From the NCBI GenBank assembly GCA_027038965.1, contig JALWFG010000017.1:1-40000 (forward strand): a DNA stretch of 40,000 bases. The letters are read 5' to 3'. A program made the translations under genes and the position numbers. The stretch is from Candidatus Desulfofervidaceae bacterium (GTDB lineage: Bacteria > Desulfobacterota > Desulfofervidia > Desulfofervidales > Desulfofervidaceae). Positions 7,088 to 39,960 of this stretch are shown one piece after another. A model generated the notes under the pieces. It was not told where the DNA came from, ran no database searches, and saw only the letters and a list, made by a program, of their open reading frames with translations. The number at the start of each line of letters is the position of its first letter. The first letter of the stretch is position 1.

Positions 7088-7504
7088 ATGGCTGAAGAAT
7101 TTGAACCTATTATTATTGGTTTTCTTTGCAATTGGTGTGCTTATGCCGGTGCTGATTTGGCAGGCACCTCTCGGATTCAGTATCCACCAAATATTCGAAT
7201 TATTAGGGTGATGTGTTCAGGAATGGTTCATCCCAATCTGGTTATTGAGGCCCTTACTAAAGGGGCAGATGGAGTTTTGGTAGCTGGCTGACACCTTGGC
7301 GAATGTCATTACCTGGAAGGTAATAAAAGGGCACAAGATAGAGCCGAGGCCATTCAGTTAATGTTAGAAGACTTTGGCCTCGAACCAGAAAGATTCCGTT
7401 TAGAATGGATTTCCGCAGCCGAAGGAGAGAAGTTTGCTAAAGTAGTTGAAGAAATGACCCAGACGTTGAAGGAATTGGGGCCTAGTCCTTATAGGGCGGG
7501 CTAG
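7088..7504 (+). CDS. mvhD: MvhD-type hydrogenase/heterodisulfide reductase iron-sulfur subunit, selenoprotein (Sec68)
   Basis: The gene is read through an in-frame UGA at 7289-7291 to the TAG at 7502-7504, giving 138 residues with selenocysteine at 68. Family features run across the [19 protein letters not shown] (CxxC, residues 14 and 17), VMCSGMVHP (Cys43), then GVLVAG-Sec-HLGECHY (Cys73) and GNKRAQDRA. MvhD homologues carry a Cys at the Sec position, and the methanococcal VhuD is a known selenoprotein. MvhD passes electrons from hydrogenase to HdrA through a [2Fe-2S] cluster. A strong AAAGGAGGTGG precedes the ATG. Standard gene calling would stop at residue 67. No hdr or hydrogenase gene lies beside it, so its partners are encoded elsewhere. 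Confidence 0.93.
7304..7333 (+). promoter_or_regulatory. Putative bacterial SECIS hairpin
   Basis: A perfect 6-bp stem, ATTACC (7308-7313) with GGTAAT (7319-7324), carries the 5-base loop TGGAA and begins 16 bases after the UGA. A lower stem, TGTC (7304-7307) with GGCA (7330-7333), extends it across an internal bulge. Bacterial SECIS elements lie within the coding region just downstream of UGA, as here. SelB binding is inferred. Confidence 0.65.
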
Positions 7505-29193: not shown

Positions 29194-29330
29194 GTGAACT
29201 ATTCCGCCCTTACGGACGGAGCTTCTGAGGGAGTTTGACCCCGCCAGGGCGGGACCCTTATCCCCCAAAGCGGGTTCACACCGCCACCTACTCCTATTCC
29301 TGTATACAGCAGGAATTCGGAGATACCTTC
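29194..29330 (-). ncRNA. Candidate TnpB guide RNA (omega/reRNA) at the element's 3' end
   Basis: The end of tnpB and the right-end DNA form a GC-rich, hairpin-rich segment on the minus strand, including CCCGCC-CTG-GCGGG-type and CCGTCC-GTAA-GGGCGG stems, and finish at TAGTTCAC. In characterised TnpB systems the guide RNA overlaps the 3' part of tnpB and ends at the element boundary, with the guide read from flanking DNA. Placement here is by analogy only. Confidence 0.35.
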
Positions 29331-30614
29331 CCTGAATTTGTAGATTCTTACTTTGACTACTTTCTTGAGTCCTGTTACAAGGTCAAACCACCCTTTCTTA
29401 AACTTCCTCAGTATGTTCCTGGCTCCATTCACATCCGCATTGATGAGCCCTTTAACAGATGACCAAAACAGCCCTCTTTTCATTCTTCTTCCCAGACCTT
29501 TGTTCTGCTTTGAAACAGTTGTGGTTCTATCACAACTGTCAGTTCGGGAAGTATAGCTCTCATCTATCAGCTTAACTCCTATTCCCTTCTCTTTTAGCTT
29601 ATAGGTTAAATACTCCGTCACCTTCCCGTGCGGTAATAGCTTAAACATCTGGTTTACAAGGTCTGGAAGGCTGTTTGCTTTGTTCTTTGACTCTTGAACT
29701 TTTCCTATCACTACCGTTCTCACTCCGTTTCTTACTGCAAGCTCCTTTATCAAATTGCTGACCTTGTGGGCGTAGTCCCTTAATAGATTCTTGATGCCCT
29801 TCCAGAGCCTATGAAGTTTCCTCTCTATCTGAACTGTCGGCAATCCCTTGTTTTTGAGGTTGTCAAGCCTGCTCTGAAGTCCAGCTATCCTTTTGAACTT
29901 TTTCCTGAGCAGTGTCTTTAACCCCCTCCCATCTATGATATAAGAAACAGGATTGCCTTCTATTACACAGGCCGTAAAGTTCGTTATCCCATAGTCTATT
30001 GCTAAGACCTTGTTACCTTTAGGCTTAATTTTTGCGACTTCTTTTTCATACACTACCACCAGCTTAAAGCTTACCTGTCCACCTGCCTTACAGGGAACTA
30101 TCTGAACATTAAGAACCGGAAGATTTTCTAATCCTTTATATCCTGTTTCTATCCACAGGTAAGCAGGAGAAAATCCGAATTTTTCAAGCAAGTGTTCTTT
30201 TAAGCCTTTTGAAAGAGACAACCTGATCTTTTTACCCTCTATCTTAAAGCCTGTTTTATCCCAGGTTACTACCCTGTGGGGCATTTCAGGATTTACATAG
30301 CCCGGCGGCCTAACAATGTTTATTCCCTTTTTCTTAAACTTTTCAGGCTGTTTTAAAAAACCGAAAAAGTTTCTCCAGCCTCTTGATAGTTCATCAAGAA
30401 CTATTTGAGCACTCCTTGAGTGTAGGGAACGCAGGTGGAGTGAAGTGTCCTTGAGCTTGTTATACAGGTCTCTATAATCTGGTTTAGCTAATTTGTTCCT
30501 AATGAGATAGTTAGCCTGATTCCACAGTTTTCCTGCATGATAGGTCAAATACCCAACAATTGTCTTCTGTTCTTCTGTCAGGTGGTTTAATTCAAATACT
30601 AACGCTCTTTTCAT
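29199..30614 (-). CDS. tnpB: TnpB RNA-guided nuclease, zinc ribbon lost
   Basis: A protein of 471 residues. The N-terminal helical domain spans about 1-180 (SAQIVLDELSRGWRNFFGFLKQPEKFK). RuvC residues are Asp in KVLAIDYGITNFTACVI, Glu in VVIGKVQESKNKA and Asp in GLINADVNGARNIL. Where most TnpB proteins have a four-Cys zinc ribbon between RuvC II and III, this one reads YTSRTDSCDRTTTV with a single Cys and then RRMKRGLFWSS, so no CxxC remains; this matches a TnpB branch common in thermophiles. The frame is intact. The proline-rich C-terminal tail overlaps the likely guide RNA. Confidence 0.88.
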   Translation of the reverse strand: MKRALVFELNHLTEEQKTIVGYLTYHAGKLWNQANYLIRNKLAKPDYRDLYNKLKDTSLHLRSLHSRSAQIVLDELSRGWRNFFGFLKQPEKFKKKGINIVRPPGYVNPEMPHRVVTWDKTGFKIEGKKIRLSLSKGLKEHLLEKFGFSPAYLWIETGYKGLENLPVLNVQIVPCKAGGQVSFKLVVVYEKEVAKIKPKGNKVLAIDYGITNFTACVIEGNPVSYIIDGRGLKTLLRKKFKRIAGLQSRLDNLKNKGLPTVQIERKLHRLWKGIKNLLRDYAHKVSNLIKELAVRNGVRTVVIGKVQESKNKANSLPDLVNQMFKLLPHGKVTEYLTYKLKEKGIGVKLIDESYTSRTDSCDRTTTVSKQNKGLGRRMKRGLFWSSVKGLINADVNGARNILRKFKKGWFDLVTGLKKVVKVRIYKFREGISEFLLYTGIGVGGGVNPLWGIRVPPWRGQTPSEAPSVRAE

Positions 30615-30673
30615 TTCAGTTTAAATTTACTTCTGTTTTTCTTTATTTTCAAGTTGCTTACGCTTACGCACCT

Positions 30674-30718
30674 GCGGGCTTTCATCCCCTCCCTTACGGG
30701 AGGGGTCTTCCCGCCCGC
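30674..30718. repeat. Nested inverted repeats at the TnpB left end
   Basis: An outer stem GCGGGC (30674-30679) with GCCCGC (30713-30718) encloses a perfect 8-bp hairpin CCCCTCCC (30686-30693) and GGGAGGGG (30698-30705) with loop TTAC. It lies about 60-100 bases before the tnpB start. It may be the transposon left-end recognition structure or a leader-RNA structure. Confidence 0.7.
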
Positions 30719-30768
30719 TGGTGATAAACTTGATTCTAAAAGCAAGTTTATTTTCCTGCATGAATAAA

Positions 30769-31031
30769 TGTAATGCCCCCCTTTAGGGCAGACAATATTT
30801 TAGCCCGTTTTAAGGTAGAGGTCATTAAGCCACCTCCTGATAATAATTTTGAGAAAAATGCCTTTCAAATTGGGGCGGGCTTAAATACCCCAAGACCGAA
30901 TTAAGGTCCAGTTCCCTATCACCTTCCTCGCCCTCCGTTAAATTATTATTTAACGGGGCTTGTAAATTCATGCCACCAAAGGACTTCCTTCTTACCGTAT
31001 AACTTTTCACTTGGCTTTTTTCTTTCTTCAT
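30769..31031 (-). pseudogene. IS3-type transposase 3' remnant
   Basis: A 68-codon frame (30825-31031) contains LDLNSVLGYLSPPQFERHF, which resembles the conserved C-terminus of IS3-family OrfB transposases (SxLGYLSPxxFE). Downstream on the same strand, at 30769, the sequence TGTAATGCCCCCC resembles an IS3-type terminal inverted repeat beginning TG. The first 35 residues of the frame do not look like transposase, so only the tail of the element survives. Similarity is by motif recognition only. Confidence 0.45.
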
Positions 31032-31177: not shown

Positions 31178-33277
31178 ATGCCTTTTATAACCAATCAACC
31201 GAATAAAGAACTCAAAAAACGCCTCACCGAACTCATCAAAGTAAGCCGGGAATTAAAATTTCTGGTTGGATTCTTTTACTTCTCTGGGATGAAAGAGCTT
31301 TACCAGGCCTTAAAATACAGATTTAAGCCTGAAAAGGATTTCCAAGGTTTTAATTTTAAAATCTTGGTAGGCCTGGAAGTAGATAAGTTCCAATACCAGC
31401 TTGTTGAACTTGCAGAAAACGAAAATTTGAGCGGAGAAGAGAAAATAGAAAAATACTTCCGTTCTATTGTAAAAGCTGTAAATTTTAAAGACTTTGATAA
31501 CAAGGATTTTTACGAACAGGCAAGTTTTTTTATAAACCTTATAGAAAACAACAAAATAACAATCAGGAAAACCTTAGAACCAAATCATGCTAAACTTTAC
31601 ATTTTTAAACTTGATGAAACACAGATAGGAAGAAAAGCTATTTTTATCACAGGAAGTAGCAACTTCACCAGAGCCGGACTGAACGAGCAAAGAGAGTTTA
31701 ATGTAGAAATTTCAGACTACGGCATAGAAGAAGCCGAAAAATATTTTGATGAAGAATGGGAAAAAGCTATAAGAATAACCGAAGAGCCGGACTTAAAATC
31801 ACGCCTTCTTTTAACCCTTAAAGAAGATACTCTTATAAAAGAAATCACCCCGTTTTCTGCCTATGTATGGGTTCTAAAAAACTACATAGATTATTTTCAG
31901 GAAAGGCTAGAAACTATTTCTCCCAGAGTGCTCTTAGAAAACTCAGGCTACAAGCCATTTAAATACCAGGTTGATGCTATCAATCAGGCCCTTGCCATCC
32001 TTCAAAAACACAATGGGGTAATTATAGCAGATGTAGTAGGGCTTGGTAAAAGTGTGATTGCTTCTGCAGTGGCACGTATTCTCGGAAAAAGAGGGGTGGT
32101 GATATGTCCACCTGCTATCATGGGAGACAGAAGAATAAAAGATTCAGGTTGGTGGGGATATCTTGAGGACTTTGGATTAACTAAAATTGGCTGGGAAGTA
32201 TATTCAATTGGCGAGCTTGAAAGGTTTAACGAAAGTATTTCCAAGCGAGAAAACAGCGACATAGAAGTTATTGTCGTAGATGAAGCTCATCGTTTTAGAA
32301 ACGAAGACACTAAAAGCTACGAACTATTAAAAAACGCAACCCGTGGCAAAAAGGTCATTCTCCTTACAGCCACTCCTTTTAACAACCGACCTTCGGATAT
32401 TCTCTCTCTTCTTAAACTCTTCATTATTCCTAAAAAGTCCACCATAAGTCTTGAAGACGACCTTATAAGCAGATTTTCTGTTTTTAAATCCTTTTTTGAC
32501 AAACTGAACTACATATCCAAATATCGTAATTCTTACGATGAAACCAAAAGAAAAAGAGCCCAAAGCTACTATTTAGCCCTTTTTGGAGAAAAGGAAATTG
32601 ACCTTGTCGAGGTTAACAGAAGAGCTAAGTATCTGGCTAAAGAGATCCGAGGGGTTATTGAACCCGTAACCATAAGAAGAAATCGCCTTGATCTTCTTAA
32701 AAACCCTCACTACAGAAAAGAAATAAAGGCCCTTTCCAGAATTGCTGACCCCTTAGAGTGCTTTTTTGAATTAAAACCGGAACAAATGGAGTTTTACGAT
32801 CAAATAATAAGTTATTTCTTTGCCCCTGAAGAAGGAGGACAATTTAAGGGGGCAATGTATCGTCCTTTTGAATATGAAAAGCCCTTAAAGGACGAGGAAA
32901 AACTTTCAGCCCAAGAAAGCTTTGAATACTTAAGCCAGAAAAACCTTTACGACATAATGAGAAGACTTCTTGTCAAAAGATTTGAAAGCTCTTTTTCAGC
33001 TTTTAAGCAGAGTATAGAAAATTTTAGAAATATAACGGAGACAGTGATCCAATTTGTTAGAAAAACAGGTAGATACATCCTTGACAGAAGACTAATTGAG
33101 GAAATTTATCAGCTTGAACCTGAACAAATAGAAGAAAAACTTAAGGAGTATGAAACGCGCCTTAAAGAAAAGCGTTATCCCAAACACCATAAAGTCTATA
33201 ACCTTAAAAAGTTTAAATATGCAGAAGAATTTTTACAGGATTTAAAGCTGATAAACAGATGTTTGAAGGAATTTTAA
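31178..33277 (+). CDS. PLD-SNF2 helicase, N-terminal part (frame broken)
   Basis: A frame of 699 residues forming the first two-thirds of a defence-type superfamily 2 helicase. A phospholipase-D-like domain (about 1-195) has the NHAKLYIF and ITGSSNFTRAG signature. The SNF2-like motor follows from FKYQVDAINQAL (Q motif), with motif I IIADVVGLGKSVIAS, motif II VVDEAHRF and motif III LLTATPFNN. The helicase C domain is missing from this frame and continues in the -1 frame from 33259. Joining at T TTA AAG (33241-33247) gives a seamless QDLKADKQMF and a protein of about 1,125 residues. GGGGGGAG precedes the ATG. Such helicases pair with large methyltransferases in restriction-like systems. Confidence 0.85.
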   Translation: MPFITNQPNKELKKRLTELIKVSRELKFLVGFFYFSGMKELYQALKYRFKPEKDFQGFNFKILVGLEVDKFQYQLVELAENENLSGEEKIEKYFRSIVKAVNFKDFDNKDFYEQASFFINLIENNKITIRKTLEPNHAKLYIFKLDETQIGRKAIFITGSSNFTRAGLNEQREFNVEISDYGIEEAEKYFDEEWEKAIRITEEPDLKSRLLLTLKEDTLIKEITPFSAYVWVLKNYIDYFQERLETISPRVLLENSGYKPFKYQVDAINQALAILQKHNGVIIADVVGLGKSVIASAVARILGKRGVVICPPAIMGDRRIKDSGWWGYLEDFGLTKIGWEVYSIGELERFNESISKRENSDIEVIVVDEAHRFRNEDTKSYELLKNATRGKKVILLTATPFNNRPSDILSLLKLFIIPKKSTISLEDDLISRFSVFKSFFDKLNYISKYRNSYDETKRKRAQSYYLALFGEKEIDLVEVNRRAKYLAKEIRGVIEPVTIRRNRLDLLKNPHYRKEIKALSRIADPLECFFELKPEQMEFYDQIISYFFAPEEGGQFKGAMYRPFEYEKPLKDEEKLSAQESFEYLSQKNLYDIMRRLLVKRFESSFSAFKQSIENFRNITETVIQFVRKTGRYILDRRLIEEIYQLEPEQIEEKLKEYETRLKEKRYPKHHKVYNLKKFKYAEEFLQDLKLINRCLKEF
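33241..33247 (+). other. X_XXY_YYZ slippery heptamer at the helicase frame junction
   Basis: The zero-frame codons are gaT TTA AAG, an exact -1 slippery heptamer. A one-base backward slip continues in the second frame as GCT GAT AAA CAG ATG. A perfect 8-bp hairpin, TTTCTACC (33284-33291) with GGTAGAAA (33300-33307), lies 36 bases downstream, farther than usual for a stimulator. The alternative is a lost A in the same run. Confidence 0.5.
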
Positions 33278-34554
33278 CCGAGCTTTCTACCTTAAAATTG
33301 GTAGAAAATGACCCTAAATTTTCAGCCCTTTTAAAAGCACTGCAACACTGGAGAGAAAAAGATTCCCAGAGAAAAATAGTCATTTTTTCTGAATACGCAG
33401 ACACAGTAAAGTATTTAGGAGAAAAATTAAAAAAACGCTTTGGAGAAAGGGTGCTGGTGGTTTATGGCAACTTAAGTGCTAAAAATCTTAAGGAAATTAG
33501 AGAAAACTTTGATGCCTCTTTGAAAAAAGAGAAGCAGAAAAACGACTACGACATTCTTGTTTCCACGGATAAACTTTCTGAAGGAGTAAACTTAAACCGG
33601 GCAGGTGTAGTAATAAACTATGATATCCCCTGGAATCCTGTAAGAGTAATCCAGAGAGTGGGAAGAATAAATCGGATTAGCAAAAAGGTTTTTGACGAGC
33701 TTTACATAATAAACTTTTTCCCCACTGAAAAAGGCGCCAATATTGTAAAGTCAAGAGAAGTTGCCAGCCAGAAGATGTTTATGATTCACAAAGTGCTTGG
33801 AGAAGACGCTAAAATTTTTGATATAGATGAGCAGCCAGAACCTTCAGAACTTTACAAAAGACTTACTCAAAATCCTGATGAAATGGAAGAAGAAGGCCTT
33901 TACACTAAACTTATAAACGAGTTTGAAAGCATAAAGGCAAAATATCCAGAGTTAATAAAAGAGGTAGAAAAGTTTCCGCCCCGACTAAAAGTTGCCAAAA
34001 GATCTCCTGAAAAAGGAAAAGAAACTCTGGTTGTGTTTTTTAAAAAATACAATCGCATTTATGCCTTAAAAAAGGAAATTTCTAAAACTGAGGTGGAGCC
34101 TTTAGAAGTAGATTCTGCTATTTCCTTAGTAAAATGTGCTCCTACTGAGCCGGCCCTTCCCTGGAACACCGATTCTTTCTGGGAAAACTACGAAAAAGTG
34201 CTTGACTACAGGAAAAAAAGCAGACCTCTTTCAGAAAAAAGCCTTGAGAGACAGGCTTTAAATGTGTTAAACACAGTTATTCAAAACTTCAGAGCCTCTC
34301 ACCTTATAAAACCGCACTGGAAATTTTTACTCACCCTCAAAGAAGACCTGATAGAATACTTTACCCTTCCAGACTACACTTTAAGGAGCATTATAGAATT
34401 TGAGGAATATTTCAAAAAAGAAGAAAAGCTTGCCCAAAAGATAGAAGAGCTGAAAAACAGACTTGGAGAAGATTATTTAGAAAAAGAAAAGCACAAACTT
34501 ATAAAAACAGAAAAAGAGGTAATTTTAGCAGTATATAACCAAAAAAAGGAGTAA
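33259..34554 (+). CDS. PLD-SNF2 helicase, C-terminal part (-1 frame)
   Basis: A frame of 431 residues with the second motor domain of the same helicase: motif IV IVIFSEYADTV, motif V ILVSTDKLSEGVNL and motif VI VIQRVGRINR, followed by a helical C-terminal region of about 200 residues ending EKEVILAVYNQKKE. The ATG at 33259 is only the first Met in this frame and has no independent ribosome site, so this is the continuation of the preceding frame and not a separate gene. Alone it would lack motifs I-III. The methyltransferase gene starts 3 bases after its stop. Confidence 0.85.
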   Translation: MFEGILTELSTLKLVENDPKFSALLKALQHWREKDSQRKIVIFSEYADTVKYLGEKLKKRFGERVLVVYGNLSAKNLKEIRENFDASLKKEKQKNDYDILVSTDKLSEGVNLNRAGVVINYDIPWNPVRVIQRVGRINRISKKVFDELYIINFFPTEKGANIVKSREVASQKMFMIHKVLGEDAKIFDIDEQPEPSELYKRLTQNPDEMEEEGLYTKLINEFESIKAKYPELIKEVEKFPPRLKVAKRSPEKGKETLVVFFKKYNRIYALKKEISKTEVEPLEVDSAISLVKCAPTEPALPWNTDSFWENYEKVLDYRKKSRPLSEKSLERQALNVLNTVIQNFRASHLIKPHWKFLLTLKEDLIEYFTLPDYTLRSIIEFEEYFKKEEKLAQKIEELKNRLGEDYLEKEKHKLIKTEKEVILAVYNQKKE

Positions 34555-34557
34555 TTC

Positions 34558-36753
34558 ATGGCCTCTTCTCCTCTTGAAAACAAACTATTTGCCTTTTTTA
34601 AGGATAGAGATTTAAAGCACTTTGCCGAATTTTTTTCAATTAAAACTCTTAAGTTTAAACCCCTTTCAGAACCTCTTTACGAGTTAAATGGTTTTCAGGA
34701 CTATTTTTCTGAGGGAGAAAAGCTTGGCGAGATTTTTTATGAAGGTGAAGGTAAAAAACTTTTAATAGCAGGCTTTAGAAGCCCAAAAGAGCTATCTGAG
34801 CGGTCAAGCAAAAAGAGGCAGTTTGACCTTGCTAAAAAGGTATTAAGGGCTGAATTTTACGACGCAGGCATTTTTATTTTTTATGACTCTTCTGGCAATT
34901 TCAGAATGAGCCTTGTTTACAAAATACCCGCAGGAAGAAGAAGCTTTTTAAGCGATTACAAAAGAAACACCTATTTTGTAGAACAAAATGAGCCTTATTA
35001 CACATTTTTAAAGCAGGTTGGAGAGTGCGACTTTTCTCCACTTGAAAAAATTATTGAAGCTTTCAGTGTTGAACCTCTAACTAAACAATTTTATCAGGAA
35101 ATAGCCAACTGGTATTTCTGGGCTTTAAAAAATGTAAAATTTCCCCCTGCAGCAGATGATAAGCAGAACGGAAGAAACATTGCCCTCATCCGCCTCATTA
35201 CCCGCTTAATGTTTATCTGGTTTTTGAAAAAGCGAAACCTCATTCCAGATGTTCTTTTTGATAAAGAAAAACTAAATCGCATATTAAAAAACTTCAATCC
35301 GCTTGGAGACGACAGCACTTATTACAAAGCCATTCTTCAAAACCTCTTTTTTGCCACCCTTAGCTGTAAGCAAGAAGAGAGACGCTTGGCCGAAGAGGGA
35401 AAATTCTTTGGCAAAGGAAAAAGGAGGAAGCAAGGATTTGACAATCAATATACCTATAGATTTAAAGAGCTTTTTGCCATAAGCAAGGCAGAAATTTTAG
35501 CTCTTTTTAAAGACATTCCTTTTCTTAACGGAGGACTTTTTGAAAAACTAAATAACGGGAAAAATGACTTTTATATAGATGATGTTACAAGAAGAAAGAA
35601 ATTTCAACCTCACATCCCAAACTTTCTCTTTTTTGCTGAGTCGCAAAATGTGGATTTAAGCAAAGACTACGGGCAAACTAAATACAGAAGTGCAGAAGTA
35701 AGGGGAATACTCAATATCTTTAAATCTTACAATTTTACCATTGATGAAAGCTCACCGGTTGATGTTGAGGTAGCCCTTGATCCTGAGATGCTTGGAAGGG
35801 TTTTTGAAAATCTTTTAGCCTCTTACAATCCTGAAACTGCAACTACGGCAAGAAAGGCCACAGGCTCTTACTACACCCCAAGAGAAATAGTTGACTACAT
35901 GGTAGAAGAATCCCTACAAGAATACTTTAAAACACAAATTCCGGGAATTGACGAACAAAAACTTGACCAACTTTTTTCTTACAGCGATGAACATAAAAAC
36001 AATCCCTTTGACGAAGAGACCACGGATAAACTTATCTCTGCCATTGACAACCTTAAAGTTTTAGACCCTGCAGTGGGCTCTGGTGCTTTTCCAATGGGAG
36101 TTTTACACAAACTTGTCTTTATTCTCCAGAAGCTTGACCCTGAAAATGAAAAGTGGTTTCAAAAACAAGTAGCAAAGGCAAATGAAATTCCGGACCCTAC
36201 AGTAAGGGAAGAAACTCTTAGAGCTATAGAAGAAAAATTTAGAGAAAAGGAGCTTGATTATGGAAGAAAGCTATACATTATCCAGAACTGTCTTTATGGA
36301 GTGGACATTCAATCCATAGCCATTCAGATATGTAAACTCAGATTTTTTATCTCCCTTCTGGTTGACGAGAAAGTAGATAAGAGAAAACCCAACCATGGCA
36401 TAGAACCGCTTCCCAACCTTGAAACCAACTTTGTTTGTGCTAATACCCTTATTGGACTTTATTATGGAGAAAGTCCATTATTCAAAAATCCACCAGAAGC
36501 TAGGAAACTTGTAGAAGAAATTAAAGCCCTATGGCAACAATATTTTACTGCCTATACCCCACAAGAAAAGGAGGAAATAAGAAAAGAAGATGCAAAGTTA
36601 AGAAAGGATCTTGTAGAAGTTTTGAAAAAGAAAAATTTTCCTGAAAATTCGGCCAAAAAATTGCCGACTGGGCCCCTTACAACAGCAACAGGTGTGCCGA
36701 CTGGTTTGACCCTAAGTGGATGTTTGGAGTGGAAGATGGATTTGATATTGTGA
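34558..36753 (+). CDS. Large adenine-specific DNA methyltransferase (Eco57I/PglX-like), N-terminal part
   Basis: A frame of 731 residues. The N-terminal 200 residues (KLLIAGFRSPKELSERSSKK, AGIFIFYDSSGNFRM) may be a nuclease-like or substrate domain that I cannot name. A helical region follows, then GRVFENLLASYN, GSYYTPREIVDYMVEESL and SAM motif I LDPAVGSGAFPMGVLHKL near residue 500. NCLYGVDIQSIAIQICKLR and NFVCANTLIGL are typical of Type IIG/BREX-like enzymes. The last 30 residues are out of frame: restoring one A in the A6 run at about 36658-36663 continues with KKIADWAPYN into GNPPHG of the next frame. AAGGAG precedes the ATG, and the gene is coupled to the helicase. Confidence 0.85.
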   Translation: MASSPLENKLFAFFKDRDLKHFAEFFSIKTLKFKPLSEPLYELNGFQDYFSEGEKLGEIFYEGEGKKLLIAGFRSPKELSERSSKKRQFDLAKKVLRAEFYDAGIFIFYDSSGNFRMSLVYKIPAGRRSFLSDYKRNTYFVEQNEPYYTFLKQVGECDFSPLEKIIEAFSVEPLTKQFYQEIANWYFWALKNVKFPPAADDKQNGRNIALIRLITRLMFIWFLKKRNLIPDVLFDKEKLNRILKNFNPLGDDSTYYKAILQNLFFATLSCKQEERRLAEEGKFFGKGKRRKQGFDNQYTYRFKELFAISKAEILALFKDIPFLNGGLFEKLNNGKNDFYIDDVTRRKKFQPHIPNFLFFAESQNVDLSKDYGQTKYRSAEVRGILNIFKSYNFTIDESSPVDVEVALDPEMLGRVFENLLASYNPETATTARKATGSYYTPREIVDYMVEESLQEYFKTQIPGIDEQKLDQLFSYSDEHKNNPFDEETTDKLISAIDNLKVLDPAVGSGAFPMGVLHKLVFILQKLDPENEKWFQKQVAKANEIPDPTVREETLRAIEEKFREKELDYGRKLYIIQNCLYGVDIQSIAIQICKLRFFISLLVDEKVDKRKPNHGIEPLPNLETNFVCANTLIGLYYGESPLFKNPPEARKLVEEIKALWQQYFTAYTPQEKEEIRKEDAKLRKDLVEVLKKKNFPENSAKKLPTGPLTTATGVPTGLTLSGCLEWKMDLIL

Positions 36754-37874
36754 TAGGAAATCCGCCTCATGGTGCTGATCTTTCAAAGTATATAAATACC
36801 ATTCTACCATTCTTTGACTTTTATGACTCGAGAAAAAATTCGGCATCGTTTTTTATATGTGTTTCATCTAAACTTTTAAAACAGAAGGGAATATCTGCTT
36901 ATATTATCCCTAAATCTTTAAGTTTTGTAGAAGGTTGGAAAAAAACAAGAGAATTTATTTGTGACAAAAATCAATTAATTGTAGCTTTAGATATTAGTAA
37001 ATCCTTTGAAAATGTTTTGTTAGAACAAGTGGTGATTATTTATAAAAAACTTAAAAATAATAAAAACTACCAAATAAAAATAGGATGTGGCTGGAATAAG
37101 TCTATAAACATTCTAGGAAGAGTAGAAAAAAATTTAATAAAAAAGTTAGACATTATTCCTTGTTATTTAGATGATTTAAAACTTGCTATTTTAAATAAAC
37201 TACAAGCTGGCAGTATTCCGTTATCAAAAATTTCAAAAACTTTTCGAGGCTTGCCATGGCAAAGAAAAGTCGGAAATACAGGAGAGCCTATTTTAAGAGG
37301 GAAAAATATTGGAAAATATTTCATAAAAGGAGAAATTGATAAAATTTCTCTTACAGAAAAAGATAAAAGTATTAAAAAAGTGTGTTTGTTAAAACAACCT
37401 AAAATTGTGTCTCAAAACATTGTAGCTCATGTTATGAGCCCTTATGATCACATAATAATTATGGCTACCTTAGATAAAAATGGTATTTTAACTTTAGATA
37501 CTTGTATGAATACTATTTTAACTGACCATAAATTTAGTTACGAGTATATTCTTGCCATTCTAAATTCACAACTTGCCTCTTGGTTTTATTATTGGTTTGT
37601 CTATAATAGAGCAATTCGTACTATGGATTTTGACAAATATTACATAGGAAAATTACCTATAAAAATTTTATCTGAGACTGATGTTTGTTATACGAAAATT
37701 ATATCTCTTGTTAACGAAATTTTAGATATTACAAAAGATAGAGAAAATTATGTCAATAATACTGATTTACAATTACAAGTTAAAATCCTTGAAAAAGAAA
37801 TTAACAATGCAATTTACGAAATTTATAATTTAACAGAAAAAGAAATTAAAATAATAGAAAGAGGAATTATATGA
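36720..37874 (+). CDS. DNA methyltransferase C-terminal part with catalytic and target-recognition region
   Basis: A frame of 384 residues continuing the methyltransferase. The catalytic motif IV is DIVIGNPPHG at the N-terminus (usual NPPY/F; His in the fourth position is tolerated in some N6-adenine enzymes). SASFFICVSSKLLKQKGISAYIIP follows, then a TaqI-type target-recognition and C-terminal domain (about 150-380; FRGLPWQRK, LRGKNIGKYF, AILNSQLASWFYYWF, YYIGKLPI). The ATG at 36720 is internal to the true gene. From about 36.75 kb base composition turns more AT-rich. A whole-gene reading gives about 1,106 residues. Confidence 0.85.
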   Translation: MFGVEDGFDIVIGNPPHGADLSKYINTILPFFDFYDSRKNSASFFICVSSKLLKQKGISAYIIPKSLSFVEGWKKTREFICDKNQLIVALDISKSFENVLLEQVVIIYKKLKNNKNYQIKIGCGWNKSINILGRVEKNLIKKLDIIPCYLDDLKLAILNKLQAGSIPLSKISKTFRGLPWQRKVGNTGEPILRGKNIGKYFIKGEIDKISLTEKDKSIKKVCLLKQPKIVSQNIVAHVMSPYDHIIIMATLDKNGILTLDTCMNTILTDHKFSYEYILAILNSQLASWFYYWFVYNRAIRTMDFDKYYIGKLPIKILSETDVCYTKIISLVNEILDITKDRENYVNNTDLQLQVKILEKEINNAIYEIYNLTEKEIKIIERGII

Positions 37875-38115
37875 CAAACCAAGAAATTGAATTTTTAAAG
37901 TGGCAATTTGATTACAATTTAAAACAAATTTCTTTAGCTGATAATAAAGAAGAGCAATTAAAAAATTTGAAGCGATATTTAACCACGCTTACAATATCCA
38001 AAAGCGCAAATTTGCAGGAGAAATTACCAAAGAAGAAGCTGAAAAACAACTTGAAGAAGTTCAAAAAGGATTAGACGAAAAAGTCGAAAAAATGTATTTG
38101 GAGCAAATACAATAA
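37871..38115 (+). pseudogene. Small charged helical protein, frameshifted
   Basis: The ATG overlaps the methyltransferase stop (ATGA). The first frame runs MTNQEIEFLKWQFDYNL and then, near 37960-37972 in aaaaaatttg, should shift: restoring one base continues as LEAIFNHAYNIQKRKFAGE, ITKEEAEKQLEEVQKGL and VEKMYLEQIQ to a TAA at 38113-38115. The rebuilt protein has about 81 residues, is rich in Lys and Glu and is probably coiled-coil. I do not recognise the family. Its coupling to the methyltransferase suggests an accessory subunit (inference). Without the repair the frame ends at 38074. Confidence 0.65.
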
Positions 38116-38127
38116 GGAGGGATTGAT

Positions 38128-39090
38128 ATGAGTACTTTGAAAGAACTTTTAGATCATCTTTTTCAATTAGCTATTATTGAACGATGGAATGACCATCCTA
38201 AGCCATTTGATATAACTGAACTTGACAAGCAGGCTCATAAGGCAATTATTGCTTATTTATTAGCCAAAATAGAAGAAAAAGAAGAGGGGAGAAAGATAGA
38301 CTGGATTGGATTGATTGATGGGATTATTTTTGAAGCATTTCAAAGGGCAATTCTTACAGACATAAAACCCAAACTTTTTCATAAACTTCTTAAAACTCGA
38401 AAAGAACAAATTAATGAGTTAGTAATTACTCAATTAAGACCTATTATTGAATCAATAAATTTAAATTGGTATAAACGTTTTGAACATTTTTTTACTAATG
38501 AGTCATTTTTATCTTTAGAAAAGGAAATTATAAATGCTGCTCACTTTTTAGCTACATATTGGGAATTTCAGTTTATTTACAATATAGGTAAAGAAACAAT
38601 TTATAATATTGAAAAAGAAAAGCACGAGATAGAAAATACTTTAGAAGATTTTCATAATTTATTAGGAGTCCAACGTTTTTTACTTAGAAAAAAAATGTAT
38701 GGATTTATAAATCTTTGCGGACAACTTAGATTTCAAAAAAGATGGATTCAAACTGTAAGAATTCCAAGAACTTCTGTAATGGGACATATGCTTATGGTAG
38801 CTATTTTATGTTATATAGTGTTAAAAAAAGAAAAAATAGAGGAAAAAAATTGTTTATATGGAACATTTTTTACAGCTTTATTTCACGATCTACCTGAAAT
38901 AATTACTAGAGATATTGTTTCTCCTGTTAAGAAGAAGTTAGGAGAAGATATTATTAAAAAAGCTGAACAAGAAGGGGTGAGAGAAGAAATTTATCCTCTT
39001 TTGCCAGAATATATAAGAAAAGAAATGGCTTGTTTTTTAGCTATTCCTGAACAAGAAGAACAGAGAAAGCAAGAAAATTTTGATGAATAA
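38128..39090 (+). CDS. HD-domain phosphohydrolase (YfbR-like), main part
   Basis: A frame of 320 residues. The N-terminal half is helical; the HD core contains His220 in TSVMGHMLMVAIL and the His253-Asp254 pair in ALFHDLPEIITRDIVSPVKKKLG, as in HD_3/YfbR-type 5'-nucleotidases and dNTP hydrolases. The fourth metal ligand, an Asp in a downstream helix, is not in this frame but appears in the overlapping frame that follows (LIKQADRAAAYAEA). The substrate is not evident. A strong AAGGAGGG ribosome site precedes the ATG. Its place behind a helicase/methyltransferase pair suggests a defence role (inference). Confidence 0.78.
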   Translation: MSTLKELLDHLFQLAIIERWNDHPKPFDITELDKQAHKAIIAYLLAKIEEKEEGRKIDWIGLIDGIIFEAFQRAILTDIKPKLFHKLLKTRKEQINELVITQLRPIIESINLNWYKRFEHFFTNESFLSLEKEIINAAHFLATYWEFQFIYNIGKETIYNIEKEKHEIENTLEDFHNLLGVQRFLLRKKMYGFINLCGQLRFQKRWIQTVRIPRTSVMGHMLMVAILCYIVLKKEKIEEKNCLYGTFFTALFHDLPEIITRDIVSPVKKKLGEDIIKKAEQEGVREEIYPLLPEYIRKEMACFLAIPEQEEQRKQENFDE

Positions 39091-39367
39091 CCGTATTTGT
39101 AATTTCACAAAAATTGGTTGCAAAATAGAGTTATTAAAAGAAAAAGATTTTCGTAAAATCTGTAAAGAATCAGCAGGAGAAAACACTTTATTAATTCCTG
39201 GAGAGTTAATTAAGCAAGCAGATAGAGCTGCAGCTTATGCAGAAGCAGTTTATTCCATAAATCTTGGATTAAAAAGTAATAAATTAATGCAATCTGCTGA
39301 TGAACTAATGGAGGAATTATTGTCCACAGAATTTGCAGAACTAGCAGAAACTCTTAAATATGACTAA
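39083..39367 (+). CDS. HD-domain protein, C-terminal part in a second frame
   Basis: A frame of about 94 residues beginning at an ATG that overlaps the previous stop (ATGAATAA). It contains GELIKQADRAAAYAEAVYSINLGL, which matches the C-terminal helix of HD_3/YfbR proteins bearing the last metal-binding Asp. It is therefore probably the end of the preceding HD protein after a frameshift (gain of one base or loss of two near 39083-39090), and not a separate gene, although the overlap by itself would also suit translational coupling. Confidence 0.65.
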   Translation: MNNRICNFTKIGCKIELLKEKDFRKICKESAGENTLLIPGELIKQADRAAAYAEAVYSINLGLKSNKLMQSADELMEELLSTEFAELAETLKYD

Positions 39368-39656
39368 AAGTGTTATTATTGTTAGAAATACATCTCCTAG
39401 TGGTGCAAAAATATTTGGGGCGAAAAAGAAGGACTTTTAAAATTTAAAATAAAGATGTGTATTGTACAGTTCTGAATTGTGCAAGACAATTGCCTCACTA
39501 AGACATTTAAAAAGAAATGTCCCGATTTAAAAATCACAACAGTAAAAGAATATATGGGAGTTATATTTTATCAGAAACAAAGCTGCTGAGGAATTTGAGG
39601 AAATAAAGATGGTGGGAAAAGGTATCTGGGAAAGAGAAAAATGTTTCTCAGTTTAA
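39360..39656 (+). pseudogene. Degenerate coding remnant of unknown family
   Basis: An ATG at 39360 opens MTKSVIIVRNTSPSGAKIFG and stops at 39440. Protein-like segments continue in changing frames: EKEGLLKFKIK, DVYCTVLNCARQLP, FKKKCPDLKITTVKEYMG and NKAAEEFEEIKMVGKGIWE. Joining them needs about four one-base repairs. I do not recognise the family. It appears to be a decayed gene overlapping the end of the HD protein frame. Confidence 0.35.
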
Positions 39657-39703
39657 ATTTTTTTGGTATGTTTAAAAGTATGAATTTACAGGGGAAAGTA
39701 AAA

Positions 39704-39960
39704 ATGGAAAAGTATTATGTAGAAATTCCAGAAGATACGATCAAAGCCTTAGGGATACCTAAACAAGAAGTAAGCTCTACGATAAAAAAAGAGCTTGCAG
39801 TTTATCTATTTGAAAAAGCATGTTATCTTTTGGTCAGGCCAGAAGATTGTCTGGATTATCTGTATGGGATTTTTTAGAGCTATTAAGAAAAAGAGAAGTG
39901 CAACTACATTATGATATAGCTGAATTAGAAGAAGACTTGAAAACTTTAAGAGAAATTTAA
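39704..39960 (+). pseudogene. UPF0175-family antitoxin, frameshifted
   Basis: The ATG at 39704 follows AGGGGAAAG and opens MEKYYVEIPEDTIKALGIP and IKKELAVYLFEK, typical of the UPF0175 family. The frame then goes wrong at gaaaaagcatg (about 39814-39820) and stops at 39875-39877. Restoring one G gives G-MLSFGQARRLSGLSVWDFLE, ELLRKREVQLHYDIAELEEDL and a TAA at 39958-39960, a complete member of about 86 residues. The family is the usual antitoxin partner of DUF3368 PIN-like toxins, one of which starts 2 bases later. Confidence 0.8.

Follow-up and report, generated by a model that had tools for sequence, protein, structure and literature searches.

A probable broken copy of a two-gene helicase–methyltransferase system beside a relic methyltransferase tail in a Candidatus Desulfofervidaceae genome

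Type-2 BR systems, which are centred on DUF499 and overlap with those named Hma, combine an HKD-Swi2/Snf2 effector, an N6-methyltransferase and a DUF499 AAA+ ATPase, with DUF3780 in 98% of taxa, and are predicted to restrict unmodified DNA (PMC12839542). In this study, we analysed a stretch of 40,000 nucleotides (the window) from a Candidatus Desulfofervidaceae bacterium, which corresponds to the first 40 kb of the 75,285-base contig C17 in genome G000 (2.19 Mb, 21 contigs). At positions 31178 to 39367 of its plus strand lie a PLD-SNF2 helicase gene, an N6-adenine-type methyltransferase gene, a small open reading frame (ORF) and an HD phosphohydrolase gene, which a first-pass annotation had proposed as a four-gene defence system. 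Type-2 BR/Hma is the closest description that we found, sharing with the first two genes the N-terminal HKD/PLD nuclease on a Swi2/Snf2 motor and the N6-adenine methyltransferase; the pair here, however, has no adjoining DUF499 ATPase. Our preferred reading, to which we give a probability of about 0.72, is that the locus holds a two-gene, restriction-modification-like defence system in broken form, followed by a relic of a methyltransferase tail and a neighbouring HD gene. The observations behind it are the conservation of the pair, its motifs, the broken frames, the relics and the co-variation between the two proteins.

Type ISP enzymes are single chains with an Mrr-type nuclease, and the type III Res subunit carries a PD-(D/E)XK nuclease and works with a different class of methyltransferase. 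Both type ISP (LlaGI/LlaBIII) and type III enzymes resemble the pair in combining an ATP-driven motor and a nuclease with a methyltransferase and a recognition domain (PMC7049714, PMC3874165). The type IV enzyme SauUSI joins an N-terminal PLD nuclease to an SF2 motor in a single chain and, as a dimer, translocates and cuts (PMC7913695); it recognises methylated DNA through a domain of its own and lacks a methyltransferase, whereas here the methyltransferase partner would supply recognition. CglI and NgoAVII also use a PLD nuclease and an SF2 ATPase for NTP-dependent restriction together with a methyltransferase (PMC4267653, PMC5737866), but there the nuclease and the ATPase sit on different subunits, and a B3 domain in the nuclease subunit performs recognition. 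A literature search outside which most subscription journals lay returned no publication on the pair alone or on the tail relics.

The helicase gene (31178..34554, plus strand) is read in two frames, 31178-33277 and 33259-34554, with Pfam PLDc_2 at residues 116-194 and SNF2 (SNF2-rel_dom) at residues 353-509 of the first frame and Helicase_C in the second. The methyltransferase gene (34558..37874, plus strand; frames 34558-36753 and 36720-37874, the second being open from 36645) matches Pfam N6_Mtase, Eco57I and TaqI_C. Gene order, strand and coordinates agreed with the first-pass annotation, as did the identities of the products (a PLDc_2 and SNF2 helicase, an Eco57I/TaqI_C-type N6 methyltransferase, a small ORF and a YfbR-like HD protein). 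Close junctions are also present, with 3 bases between helicase and methyltransferase, an ATGA at 37871-37874 and 11 bases from the stop at 38116 to the ATG at 38128, but only if the frame breaks described below are read through.

We compared 30 helicase loci, comprising the window, genomes of the phylum, two further contigs of metagenome-assembled genomes (MAGs), and plasmids of Allomeiothermus, Thermus, Parabacteroides, Prevotella and Methanothermococcus. The results showed a methyltransferase within two genes of the PLD-SNF2 helicase in 27 of the 30 loci, the remaining three ending at contig edges. The pair was found in both bacteria and archaea, and no third gene family recurred with it in more than three of the 30 loci. 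The helicase comes first in most loci, and the methyltransferase comes first in Thermus, Allomeiothermus, Methanothermococcus and genome G086. The PLD (HxK...GSSN), Walker A, DEAH and QRxGRxNR motifs are intact in the window helicase. Among the homologues, H137, K139, G159, S160/S161 and N162 of the PLD domain (numbered as in locus L004, a contig of G074, the same-genus MAG that was the nearest relative found) and the Walker A, DEAH and QRxGRxNR motifs show little or no variation; the homologous methyltransferases carry motif I and NPPY. Judged from sequence, the helicase and methyltransferase are a real restriction-modification-like unit, as the earlier pairing of the two genes had implied. 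In three loci (L004:11292-14971, L007:5837-9167 and L008:6578-9995), separate ORFs encode the methyltransferase and its type-C recognition/tail part, which could mean natural M and S subunits or else a frame break; their homologues in L040, L046 and L051 are single ORFs.

All four genes of the window are present, but each frame is interrupted by a single-base shift, which the first-pass annotation had missed. The shifts lie near 33244 at TTTAAAG in the helicase, near 36655 at a run of six A in the methyltransferase, near 37955 at a run of six A in the small ORF, and near 39080 at AAAATTTTG in the HD gene. The direction is -1 in the helicase and methyltransferase and the opposite in the HD gene. 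The UPF0175 antitoxin gene beyond the HD gene is also split, near 39815, so that one frame matches PF03683 profile positions 1-31 and a different frame matches positions 34-75. Among 395 genomes of the phylum, nearly all relatives encode the helicase homologue in one uninterrupted frame of about 1,060-1,160 amino acids, indicating that the breaks are specific to G000 or its assembly and are not programmed frameshifts. The L004 helicase, 86% identical to that of the window, is an intact ORF of 1130 amino acids (L004:7919-11311), and intact single-frame methyltransferase homologues occur in L043, L044 and L045. G000 itself has only one copy of the helicase.

We then compared the helicase with its relatives. 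Against L004, nonsynonymous divergence (dN) was 0.075 and synonymous divergence (dS) 0.79, giving a dN/dS of about 0.1; the window helicase was unchanged at all 124 positions invariant across the other homologues used, and the relative rates were 21 vs 13 and 8 vs 7 (against G074). The low dN/dS and the unchanged invariant columns indicate that the helicase was under selection until very recently, and the same values do not support an old pseudogene. Given this strong purifying selection and the intact homologues, the breaks are either recent losses or local sequence errors. In the methyltransferase, motif I reads DPAVGSG, whereas motif IV reads NPPH, against NPPY in 24 matched homologues; NPPH was absent from these 24 and from relatives of the C-terminal part in which the motif was found. 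A histidine at this position may not necessarily abolish activity. Because both genes carry single-base shifts and NPPH replaces NPPY, the system is probably not functional in the deposited genome, and the sequence points to a probable recent inactivation of the pair.

The small ORF (37871..38116, plus strand) had been taken as a small helical protein and a component of the system. Searching the 395 genomes with its 81-amino-acid read-through product gave three matches: the window itself, the C-terminus of a 1242-amino-acid methyltransferase in G226, and a degenerate fragment in G344 directly 3' of that genome's methyltransferase. Positions 37957-38097 match the tail of the G226 methyltransferase with an E-value of 5.6e-14, and a 106-base segment is 89% identical at the DNA level to a relic that occupies the corresponding position in L045. 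No match was found in the plasmid sequences. With only a methyltransferase tail and a degenerate relic outside the window, a conserved small protein was rejected; by these homologies, the ORF is what remains of the C-terminus, a type-A coiled-coil tail, of an earlier methyltransferase allele.

Methyltransferase tails fall into few types (A, B and C), and we ran tail profiles on six-frame translations of the homologous loci. Extra tail fragments were detected in the window, L041, L042, L043, L045, L049, L050, L051 and L054, about a third of the loci, with weak matches in L052 and L056 left out of the count. All of them lie on the helicase strand downstream of the methyltransferase, and the same profiles gave no matches on 233 kb of control sequence. 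In several loci the relic type is unlike the native tail: A follows B in the window and L045, B follows A in L043, C follows B in L042, and B follows C in L051. The tails in L050 are less clear, since its methyltransferase is itself truncated. In the window, the present allele comprises a target-recognition region and a type-B tail (36767..37874, plus strand; tail-B profile match at 37689-37859). An accessory "gene" in a defence island can thus be a scar and not a component, and annotation by guilt by association may be misled by it. Between the HD gene and the antitoxin gene, the stretch 39367-39660 is degenerate, and 26 bases within it (39633-39658) match the 3' end of the L045 methyltransferase at 96%; that 3' end directly adjoins the type-A relic of L045. 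The match is short and may mark a further tail relic.

Comparisons of closely related loci show how such relics arise. L051 (G065) and L058 (G226) are 94-97% identical in their flanks and helicase region, but their methyltransferases differ from about codon 180 to the end, and the last ~33 codons of the L058-type methyltransferase persist in L051 after the new methyltransferase and a 251-codon gene. Between L043 and L044, identity is 92.8% across the helicase and the methyltransferase as far as a point shortly beyond NPPY, after which the recognition part differs; the L044-type tail persists in L043 at 7328-7465 as a relic with 89.9% identity. DNA homology between the window and L004 begins 4 bases upstream of the helicase start and ends at about methyltransferase codon 169, and homology of the window to L043, L044 and L045 ends just past motif IV. 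The pattern of homology indicates that the recognition part is replaced and the old 3' end of the methyltransferase is left behind. This resembles "domain movement", the exchange of target-recognition domains in type I and type IIG genes, in which specificity is changed by recombination at conserved sequences flanking the recognition region (PMC3077401). Relic tails record replacements of the recognition part of a restriction enzyme; if this is true, the history of specificity switches would be countable from genome sequence. Several loci carry genes between the methyltransferase and the relic: an AbiJ-like gene within the stretch L054:2739-7212, a DUF2851 gene within L051:2959-7634, a radical SAM gene within L049:12254-19200 and a gene for a 93-amino-acid protein within L041:11572-15660. 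They look as if they were cargo that arrived with the new recognition cassette.

Pairwise identities point to the same modular organisation. For the helicase, methyltransferase residues 1-170, the core to NPP and the post-NPP part, respectively, they were 86, 76, 36 and 21-24% between the window and L004; 90, 90, 41 and 27% between L051 and L058; 37, 27, 69 and 77% between L004 and L051; and 94, 80, 94 and 24% between L043 and L044. Across 198 pairs from 21 systems, identity of the N-terminal module tracked helicase identity with the core held constant (partial Spearman 0.71), compared with 0.23 for the module against its own core with the helicase held constant. In a permutation test of the co-variation between the module and the helicase, the observed value was reached in 0 of 999 permutations. 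These results suggest that the N-terminal module docks onto the helicase and that the core and recognition domain form an exchangeable cassette. In the window, the proposed docking module covers the first ~170 methyltransferase codons (34558..35067, plus strand), a segment with DNA homology to L004. The co-variation points to the contact surface between the motor and recognition subunits, and, if true, this natural junction would allow new combinations of specificity and motor to be made in the laboratory.

In intact relatives, we propose that the C-terminal recognition domain of the methyltransferase would read the DNA sequence and that an adenine on host DNA would be methylated. The PLD-SNF2 protein, docked on the N-terminal ~170 residues of the methyltransferase, would act as an ATP-driven motor and nuclease, travelling along unmodified DNA from the recognition site and cutting with its PLD domain. 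Each chain holds a single HxK...GSSN half-site, so a pair of PLD-SNF2 molecules is probably needed for cutting, and the paired PLD domains would cleave as in SauUSI (PMC7913695). As in type III and type ISP enzymes, modification and restriction would share one recognition domain (PMC3874165, PMC7049714). Specificity would change by recombination, with the helicase and docking module staying in place: a breakpoint near codon 170 would swap the catalytic/recognition part, an alternative breakpoint just after NPPY would swap the recognition part only, and the end of the old methyltransferase gene would remain as a short relic. As a broader proposal, which we hold at close to even odds, the family may be a widespread DUF499-free two-gene restriction system with built-in specificity change, in which the helicase and docking module are fixed and catalytic/recognition cassettes are swapped at the methyltransferase 3' end, sometimes with an extra (defence) gene, each swap leaving a countable relic tail. 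The interest of the locus lies in this scar and modular exchange and not in the four-gene combination first proposed.

Several points weigh against reading the locus as a broken two-gene defence system. Every gene is shifted once, by a single base at or next to a short homopolymer, and none has a nonsense mutation; the breaks could therefore be assembly errors, and the dN/dS and invariant positions fit an intact, badly sequenced gene as well as a very recent loss. Defence, methylation and cleavage by any family member are deductions from sequence, and so are docking and translocation. The structure models, built from 6-7 sequences with the plasmid sequences left out, are weak (pLDDT 64 and 48) and silent on the interface and docking between helicase and methyltransferase. 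Within that limit, the best structural matches of the helicase model were Swi2/Snf2 motors, and the closest folds to the methyltransferase core model were BrxX/PglX. The co-variation of the N-terminal module with the helicase could also stem partly from physical linkage and not from contact, since the module adjoins the helicase gene where the helicase comes first.

The strongest rival explanation holds that the organism itself carries an intact, working system and that the shifts arose as local errors of sequencing or assembly, limited to this stretch. In its favour, all shifts are single-base and located at short homopolymers or A/T-rich sites, the frames have no internal stops, the helicase is under strong purifying selection, and an assembly of 21 contigs could plausibly contain an accessory region that is composite or of low coverage. 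We scanned about 227 kb of sampled stretches of G000 with a frame-aware shift scan and removed by eye ordinary gene junctions, which were often flagged. The scan gave two matches in the 8.7-kb island (helicase and methyltransferase), thus picking up only two of the island's several shifts, and two convincing ones elsewhere, in a thioesterase on C3 and a second TnpB on C7. This distribution indicates that the breaks are locally concentrated and does not support general assembly noise across the genome. Set against this rival are the outcome of the scan, the NPPH in place of the NPPY of 24 matched homologues, and the split UPF0175 neighbour. We regard such local errors as a substantial possibility, somewhat short of an even chance. 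For G000, the practical consequence is that the system is probably off or that the assembly needs checking. The thioesterase-like gene (G000:C3 about 29265; L078 near 9265, minus strand) is split by its shift between …IHGGLIATLLDEI and MAYAAFKEGP….

Another explanation is that the pair is what remains of a degraded Type-2 BR/Hma (DUF499) or class 1 DISARM system whose other genes were lost. Type-2 BR helicases do carry an N-terminal HKD nuclease on a Swi2/Snf2 motor beside an N6-methyltransferase (PMC12839542), and DrmD and HmaA profiles match the helicase motor. However, DUF499 (PF04465) is not near the pair in the window and went undetected in eight of the ten pair-bearing genomes searched; in the other two it does not adjoin the pair, lying on another contig in G000 and about 10 kb or more away in G065. 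DUF3780 (PF12635) gave no match in the ten genomes, in a search that had no positive control. The L004 helicase homologue scored 149.5 bits against DrmD model NF038317 (cut-off 610) and 91.5 bits against NF038318 (cut-off 950), and none of drmA, drmB and drmC was found among the window ORFs, which distinguishes the locus from class 1 DISARM. BREX is likewise not matched, with PglX models below 65 bits (cut-offs 400-900), no pglZ or brxC and no conserved third gene. The first-pass annotation had correctly recorded the absence of drmA/B/C, pglZ and brxC from the island. With no nearby DUF499, a DrmD score far below the cut-off and no recurring third gene, the two-gene form is the normal state of the family and not a product of decay, and degradation of a larger system is unlikely. 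In G065, a DUF499 gene lies ~10 kb from the pair (G065:C1:755821-757674 and 743228-745831) and is absent from G226, a genome with the same site.

The closest database entries were the PADLOC REase_MTase_IIG profiles PDLC03596/03601/03612 and C3a139 "HKD+Snf2". The L051 helicase matches C3a139 over nearly its whole length (E-value 1.5e-47) and the L051 methyltransferase matches PDLC03596 from residue 1 (E-value 2.8e-127), indicating that members of both families are already in the defence database under separate names. The halves of the window helicase match C3a139 only partly. Residues 1-170 of the L004 methyltransferase had no Pfam match, and alignments of the N-terminal module lacked an invariant acidic/lysine set or the EXK motif of a PD-(D/E)XK nuclease, the model being too weak to speak to a degenerate fold. 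The "type IIG" (self-cutting) label may therefore mislead.

The HD gene (38128..39367, plus strand; frames 38128-39090 and 39080-39367; Pfam YfbR-like / HD_3) had also been proposed as a component. HD phosphohydrolases are known from other defence contexts. A search of 59 genomes found five relatives, all single ORFs of ~400 amino acids near rnhB, gyrA and transport genes, and none had a helicase or methyltransferase nearby. Conversely, no HD homologue was found near any of the 29 other helicase loci, and these two results indicate that the HD gene is a neighbour and not part of the system. The first-pass annotation had named an HD gene and small protein unrelated to the pair as what would refute it; the HD gene proved unrelated, and the small ORF is related to the pair as a leftover of the methyltransferase, not as a protein component. 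The proposal of a new defence system of four genes, with nucleotide depletion by the HD protein and the small helical protein as a subunit, has in its favour the common strand, the tight spacing and the known defence roles of HD phosphohydrolases; it is highly improbable given the absence of HD homologues from 29 of 29 other helicase loci, the setting of the HD relatives beside rnhB, gyrA and transport genes, and the homology of the small ORF to methyltransferase tails that occur elsewhere as degenerate fragments. Least probable of all is programmed frameshifting that yields both proteins of the pair at full length: the sequence T TTA AAG at the helicase junction resembles a slippery heptamer and both genes shift by -1, but close relatives such as L004 are single-frame, the HD gene is shifted the other way and unrelated neighbours are shifted too.

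The remaining features are neighbours of the broken pair. The UPF0175 antitoxin gene, a member of a toxin-antitoxin pair, lies at 39641..39960 on the plus strand (frames 39641-39877 and 39820-39957). The 23S and 5S rRNA genes follow downstream (L002:1975-7508; C17 about 39975-45508), placing the island between the gpsA/exonuclease III genes and the rRNA operon. Upstream of the pair, an intact IS605-type TnpB gene occupies 29199..30614 on the minus strand, with Pfam OrfB_IS605 and Cas12f1-like_TNB. The second TnpB copy (G000:C7 about 29632-31027; L082 near 10779, minus strand) is 94% identical to this intact copy and is frame-broken.

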